Assembly (NCBI GenBank): GCA_944325685.1
Contig: CALVBC010000012.1
Span: forward strand, 1 to 54,173
Reading direction: 5' to 3'
From: an uncultured Erysipelotrichaceae bacterium
Lineage (GTDB): Bacteria; Bacillota_I; Bacilli_A; Erysipelotrichales; Erysipelotrichaceae
DNA: 54,173 nt
In this document: positions 54,093 to 54,173 of the stretch, in pieces
Layout: the number at the start of each line of letters is the position of its first letter
Position numbering within the stretch: position 1 is the stretch's first letter
Made by a program: the position numbers and the translations under genes
The notes under the pieces: generated by a model
The model's input: the letters and a program-made list of their open reading frames with translations, nothing else
Told to the model about the DNA's origin: nothing
The model's database searches: none

Positions 54093-54128
54093 TTCCTTTA
54101 CAAAAATACTATGAGCTACATAGTTAGT

Positions 54129-54173
54129 GCTTGCTTGCTTGCTTGCTTGCTTGCTTGCTTGCTTGCTTGCTTG
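54129..54173. repeat. Tetranucleotide repeat (GCTT)n, truncated by the window end
   Basis: 45 bp, about 11 copies of GCTT (CAAG on minus), uninterrupted to the last base. On plus, an ATG at 54111 would run MSYIVS followed by ACLL repeats. On minus, all frames give KQAS repeats, and one frame stays open afterwards to a TGA inside the loop of the hairpin at 54031-54066. Confidence 0.9.

Follow-up and report, generated by a model that had tools for sequence, protein, structure and literature searches.

The window analysed here is an entire contig (C12; 54,173 nucleotides) of the genome assembly of an uncultured Erysipelotrichaceae bacterium (1.36 Mb, 31 contigs), and it ends at its right edge in a tetranucleotide repeat. 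The question raised by this locus is whether the repeat can switch a gene ON and OFF and, if so, which gene is switched and by what means. The original prediction of a slippage-prone tetranucleotide tract at this edge is borne out, since Tandem Repeats Finder reports a period of 4 and 11.5 copies over 46 nt (TGCT/GCTT units) with 100% matches and 0 indels, running to the last base. The tract starts at 54128 and not, as had been proposed, at 54111, the latter position being the ATG of a postulated plus-strand ORF. Tracts of five or more AAGC/GCTT units number only four in the 1.36 Mb genome, the window-edge tract among them, and a control pattern with the unit reversed gave 0 matches in the same 1.36 Mb.

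The end of another contig, C11, is the reverse complement of the window edge. As a flank of 44 bp and the repeat are identical in the two contigs, and this flank is unique in the genome, the tract at the end of C11 and that at the window edge are one and the same tract. The complete tract on C11 (L010 5592-5675) comprises 84 nt or 21 units. An IS3-like transposase gene pair is also found on C11 (L010 4102-5330), about 260 bp upstream of the tract, and is possibly the reason for the divergent start region, with a TTG codon and a ribosome site, in this leader. The suggestion that the tract ended the assembly at this point is probably correct, and about 11 of the related tracts are likewise found no more than roughly 150 bp from a contig end.

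On the minus strand the tract is contained in a short leader ORF encoding Lys-Gln-Ala-Ser repeats. The start of the leader is a TTG at C11:33559 preceded by AGAAGGGGAG; the frame opens with LTNILSKPTLIA and continues as (SKQA)n through the tract. This TTG, situated on the other contig, is weaker than the ATG starts of the other leaders. Beyond the tract one frame meets a TAA at +4 and another a TAG at +12, while the third stays open for 83 nt up to a TGA (54045-54047) situated 19 nt past the start of a terminator stem. The original prediction had described exactly this arrangement, of a single minus-strand frame reaching a TGA in the hairpin and two others stopping early, and had mentioned the hairpin just as the end point of a frame. 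The frame does end there; the hairpin itself turns out to be the key element, an intrinsic terminator that separates the leader ORF from the gene of a secreted protein. The features of the locus are collected in the table.

Table. Features of the repeat-containing leader and of the gene behind it (window positions)
Feature	Position	Strand	Remarks
(AAGC)n tract, inside leader ORF	54128..54173	-	11.5 units, running to contig end
TAA stop, first short leader frame	54124..54126	-	60 nt before terminator stem
TAG stop, second short leader frame	54116..54118	-	52 nt before terminator stem
Long leader frame after tract, NYVAHSIFVKEDNDINRALSKALAYL and stop	54045..54127	-	TGA in terminator loop; predicted ON frame
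17-bp perfect inverted repeat enclosing terminator	53989-54005 / 54076-54092	.	unique to this leader copy
Intrinsic terminator stem-loop	54031..54064	-	dG -17.2 kcal/mol; loop 54045-54050; T-run ~54028-54032
Shine-Dalgarno of secreted-protein gene	53941..53948	-	AAGGAGAG
Gene, 428-aa secreted protein	52643..53929	-	signal peptide; C-terminal motif ECQKEFGKDVVYSEKLGACVYKFMVVDTSAR common to other genes, mostly behind such leaders

With the 21 units of the assembled tract the TTG frame leaves the repeat in the frame of the TAA at +4, and the window locus is predicted to be OFF; two additional units would shift the leader into the long frame. The hairpins of the sister leaders occupy the same position, about 49 nt after the tract, and their arms differ in sequence yet pair. 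A search of the region against Rfam gave only chance-like eukaryotic matches. The inverted repeat that encloses the terminator may strengthen the OFF state.

In the pil1 and pil3 operons of Streptococcus gallolyticus, out-of-frame changes in a GCAGA repeat lengthen a leader peptide, and the ribosome then prevents formation of the terminator (Danne 2014, PLoS Pathog, PMC3894217). The stops of the OFF variants lie 39-49 bp upstream of the hairpin and those of the ON variants 4 bp upstream or inside it (PMC3894217). The window locus has the elements of an attenuator of the pil1 type. Its unit is not a multiple of 3 and belongs to a leader ORF that precedes a surface-protein gene, an intrinsic terminator separates the two, the stop falls well upstream of the terminator or in its loop depending on the frame, and the leader has a translatable start (TTG with AGAAGGGGAG here, ATGs near a -10 box in the sisters). 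The tract is therefore considered very probably to be part of a phase-variable transcription attenuator, in which slippage would set the frame of the leader and only the long frame would let transcription continue.

By analogy with the pil1/pil3 experiments, we propose that slippage of the tract occurs in living cells and that translation of the leader takes place and prevents termination. Transcription would start upstream of the tract, on C11, and would first cover the short repeat-containing leader ORF. With a unit of 4 nt, or of 5 nt at some of the sister loci, every unit gained or lost by slippage would alter the frame in which ribosomes exit the tract. In two of the frames ribosomes would stop within 12 nt, the terminator would fold and the surface-protein gene would be OFF. 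In the third, ribosomes would translate as far as the TGA within the loop of the terminator, the foremost one would mask the 5' half of the stem, and RNA polymerase would pass and leave the gene ON. A role of the tract in phase variation, as originally suggested, is likely on these grounds.

About 25 loci with this layout of tract, leader, terminator and gene are seen in three genomes of one genus; this genome contributes 5, and G002 and G005 have about 10 each. The loci have been identified by a sequence model of the post-tract region together with pattern searches, and their number is approximate because some are cut by contig ends. In this genome AAGC tracts on C2 (17 units) and C30 (10 units) precede genes of signal-peptide proteins of 1248 and 983 aa, respectively, and further loci are represented by a short AAGC copy on C23 and a GCAGA pentamer on C13. 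The units across the loci are AAGC, AGCC, AGTC, AACG and AGAGC/GCAGA. As they differ and are yet always of 4 or 5 nt, it is frame switching that is conserved and not the sequence of the repeat. No unit contains a start or stop codon in any frame, a weak point taken alone as 40 of 60 tetramer and 125 of 204 pentamer classes qualify. Paralogous tracts compared, in one genome per species, range from 3.5 to 24 units.

A model search over 272 genomes of the family found the leader confined to this genome, G002 and G005, and weak matches in G001, G003, G004, G007 and G008 were accordingly set aside as chance. A search for GCAGA in 395 genomes of the class (G005 lies outside that sample) gave only the C13 locus of this genome, and viral contigs searched for strain variation gave no match. 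An unusual arrangement is seen at L057 (G005:C95, 2895-3284, 1292-2445), where an in-frame fusion joins the leader to the N-terminal portion of an ORF for a HAD-type hydrolase. A transposase gene pair has inserted there between the leader and its terminator and separates the leader from its gene.

The pattern of stops seen in the window extends to the sister loci. Of the 18 leaders scored, 16 have a single frame that extends to the terminator and two that end 15 nt or more ahead of it. Most OFF stops are located 32-60 nt upstream of the stem. The ON stops are usually in or next to the loop, the extremes being 6 nt ahead of the stem and beyond the loop. This pattern is supportive and not decisive, because dinucleotide shuffles produce one long and two short frames in about 0.3-0.5 of cases per leader and the loci share ancestry. 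The long frame has a weak coding-like conservation (NYVIENLFLKENTF-like; BLOSUM column-shuffle p 0.005, third-position excess p 0.046), statistics that are weakened by the common descent of the leaders. Its peptide is only loosely conserved and is altered by indels in L009, L060 and L100, with the stop still near the terminator. Among the 20 leaders whose start is visible, about 6 are in the terminator-reaching frame, close to the 1/3 expected, namely that of C13 in this genome, L096, L097, L098 and L192 in G005 and L101 in G002. The tract of L101 has decayed and its frame looks locked ON.

Sixteen of the 17 leaders with an ATG start have a -10-like box 6-8 nt before the ATG, as against 4.2% of the ATGs in the window. 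In the remaining one (L096) such a box precedes another in-frame ATG that lies farther upstream. From this spacing most of the leader ORFs are predicted to be leaderless, with transcripts that begin on the start codon or no more than two bases from it. The leader of the window, with its ribosome site and TTG, is an exception. A heptamer, CTTGACA, is also common to nearly all the leaders; it is found 8-14 nt past the leader start amid divergent sequence in L009, L011, L056, L058, L060, L096-L099 and L191-L196, and in the leader on C11 (L010) it abuts the TTG start. It is present in either reading frame and is therefore not kept for the peptide.

A tetranucleotide tract beside an ATG could be read as lying in a phase-variable protein gene itself, a mechanism common in other bacteria (lic1/opa type), either in a plus-strand ORF beginning MSYIVS-ACLL or in an N-terminal extension of the secreted protein. 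This is highly improbable here. The plus-strand ORF, which had been thought to encode a membrane or secreted protein with ACLL repeats, is only 34, 42 or 61 aa long, by frame, when it is followed across the junction into C11. On the minus strand no leader frame extends into the gene that begins at 53929, and this gene is equipped with a start, a ribosome site and a signal peptide of its own. The tract is thus not in frame with an effector protein, and the repeat, originally placed inside the phase-variable gene, sits in a leader ORF that terminates before the real gene. Equally hard to sustain is the view of the tract as a neutral simple repeat combined with an assembly-edge artefact and devoid of any regulatory role. 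Contig ends do coincide with many of the sister tracts, as with the tract of the window. Against this, C11 carries the whole tract and has unique sequence to either side of it, and every long tract found in the three genomes occupies a leader of this kind, with none elsewhere.

Somewhat less remote, and still unlikely, is an action of the tract at the level of DNA or RNA through its length and not its reading frame, by promoter spacing or as the site of a repeat-reading protein. The tract does lie close downstream of a promoter, and a TTGACA-like motif is seen about 25 nt before the tract at nearly every locus. This motif was considered as the -35 box of a promoter abutting the tract and was rejected, as the aligned loci have no -10 box 17 bp after it. 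The -10 box, which at the sister loci is 6-8 nt before the leader ATG and about 50 nt upstream of the tract, instead places the tract within the transcript; the tract is neither between nor upstream of promoter boxes. A repeat-reading protein is unlikely because the sequence of the unit differs between loci, and a site for an RNA-binding protein has been discounted for the same reason. An effect of length would moreover leave unexplained the one long and two short frames ahead of the terminator, which an attenuator switched by the reading frame of the leader would account for.

The proteins encoded downstream of the leaders have signal-peptide-like N-termini. For the 428-aa protein of the window, sequence searches of Pfam, NCBIfam and the PDB gave nothing useful, and a single-sequence structure prediction reached a pLDDT of 37 and was set aside. 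Most of the leader-target proteins end in C..(F/Y)G..(W/Y).(W/Y)....AC..K..(I/V)V(D/N)T..(K/R), and 10-11 such C-termini are found in each of the three genomes. This region (52643-52762 on the minus strand of the window; about 30 genes in this genome, G002 and G005) has two cysteines and a terminal IVDT(S/A)(T/R)(K/R), and could be an unrecognised surface-anchoring signal. Some of the motif-bearing genes are without a repeat leader, and the switch therefore serves a subset of them.

The pentamer locus on C13 differs in its gene order, the first gene behind the leader encoding a TetR-type regulator and the next a secreted protein of 478 aa. A pair of genes of these two kinds follows a pentamer leader both in this genome (L169, G000:C13), where the GCAGA tract is intact, and in G002 (L176, G002:C63), where the tract has decayed. 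A phase-variable regulator is a possible interpretation.

In trp, ilv and erm-type leaders the position of the ribosome on the leader ORF decides the folding of the terminator, and a metabolite or drug is sensed through stalling. The proposed attenuator is similar in that ribosome position would control the terminator, and differs in that the frame set by the repeat would decide, with no stalling signal needed. In lic1A of Haemophilus the tetranucleotide repeat lies in the effector ORF; tetranucleotide slippage with a change of frame is the common element, whereas the repeat described here is in a separate leader ORF. Replication slippage also governs surface structures in another gut commensal, Bifidobacterium breve, through a G-tract pilus switch which acts partly via lost coupling of translation and transcription (Penno et al. 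2022, PMC9187656). That G-tract differs in being inside the pilus gene, where it joins the two halves, with no leader peptide or intrinsic terminator (PMC9187656).

With pil1/pil3 of S. gallolyticus the present loci share repeats in a leader ORF, a unit that is not a multiple of 3, a terminator before a surface-protein gene, and short frames that stop tens of nucleotides upstream with long frames ending next to or in the hairpin (PMC3894217); the GCAGA unit itself is used at three of the loci. In S. gallolyticus the switch was described for two pilus operons with a single unit, and the leader carries a ribosome-binding site (PMC3894217). The set described here, known from sequence alone, differs in extending over about 25 loci of three species, in its five units, in leader ORFs that are mostly leaderless by prediction, and in varied surface proteins with a common C-terminal motif, a TetR-type regulator gene coming first at one locus. 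Searches of open-licence literature revealed no further example of such a switch beyond S. gallolyticus. The feature is probably a multi-locus form of a known and rarely reported type of switch. What appears to be new is a multi-locus set, of mixed units and mostly leaderless leader ORFs, in an uncultured genus of Erysipelotrichaceae, with switching as its probable function.

A broader proposal, which is tentative and for which the case is nearly balanced, is that these loci form a phasome at the level of the genus. Independent frame-switch attenuators, each with a leaderless leader ORF and CTTGACA, would combinatorially switch families of surface proteins and one TetR-type regulator; units would be freely exchanged between loci with the cassette kept, and CTTGACA may add a common control. 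Annotation pipelines will miss such a switch because the leader ORFs are tiny and often leaderless and the tracts break assemblies. As far as searched, the mechanism had been described for two pilus operons of one Streptococcus, and a probable instance of it that comprises many genes is now seen in a gut lineage both unrelated and uncultured; the mechanism would therefore be either recurrent or more widespread than thought. Since the state of each locus is readable from the exit frame and the position of the stop, metagenomic long reads could be used directly to score many surface proteins as ON or OFF.
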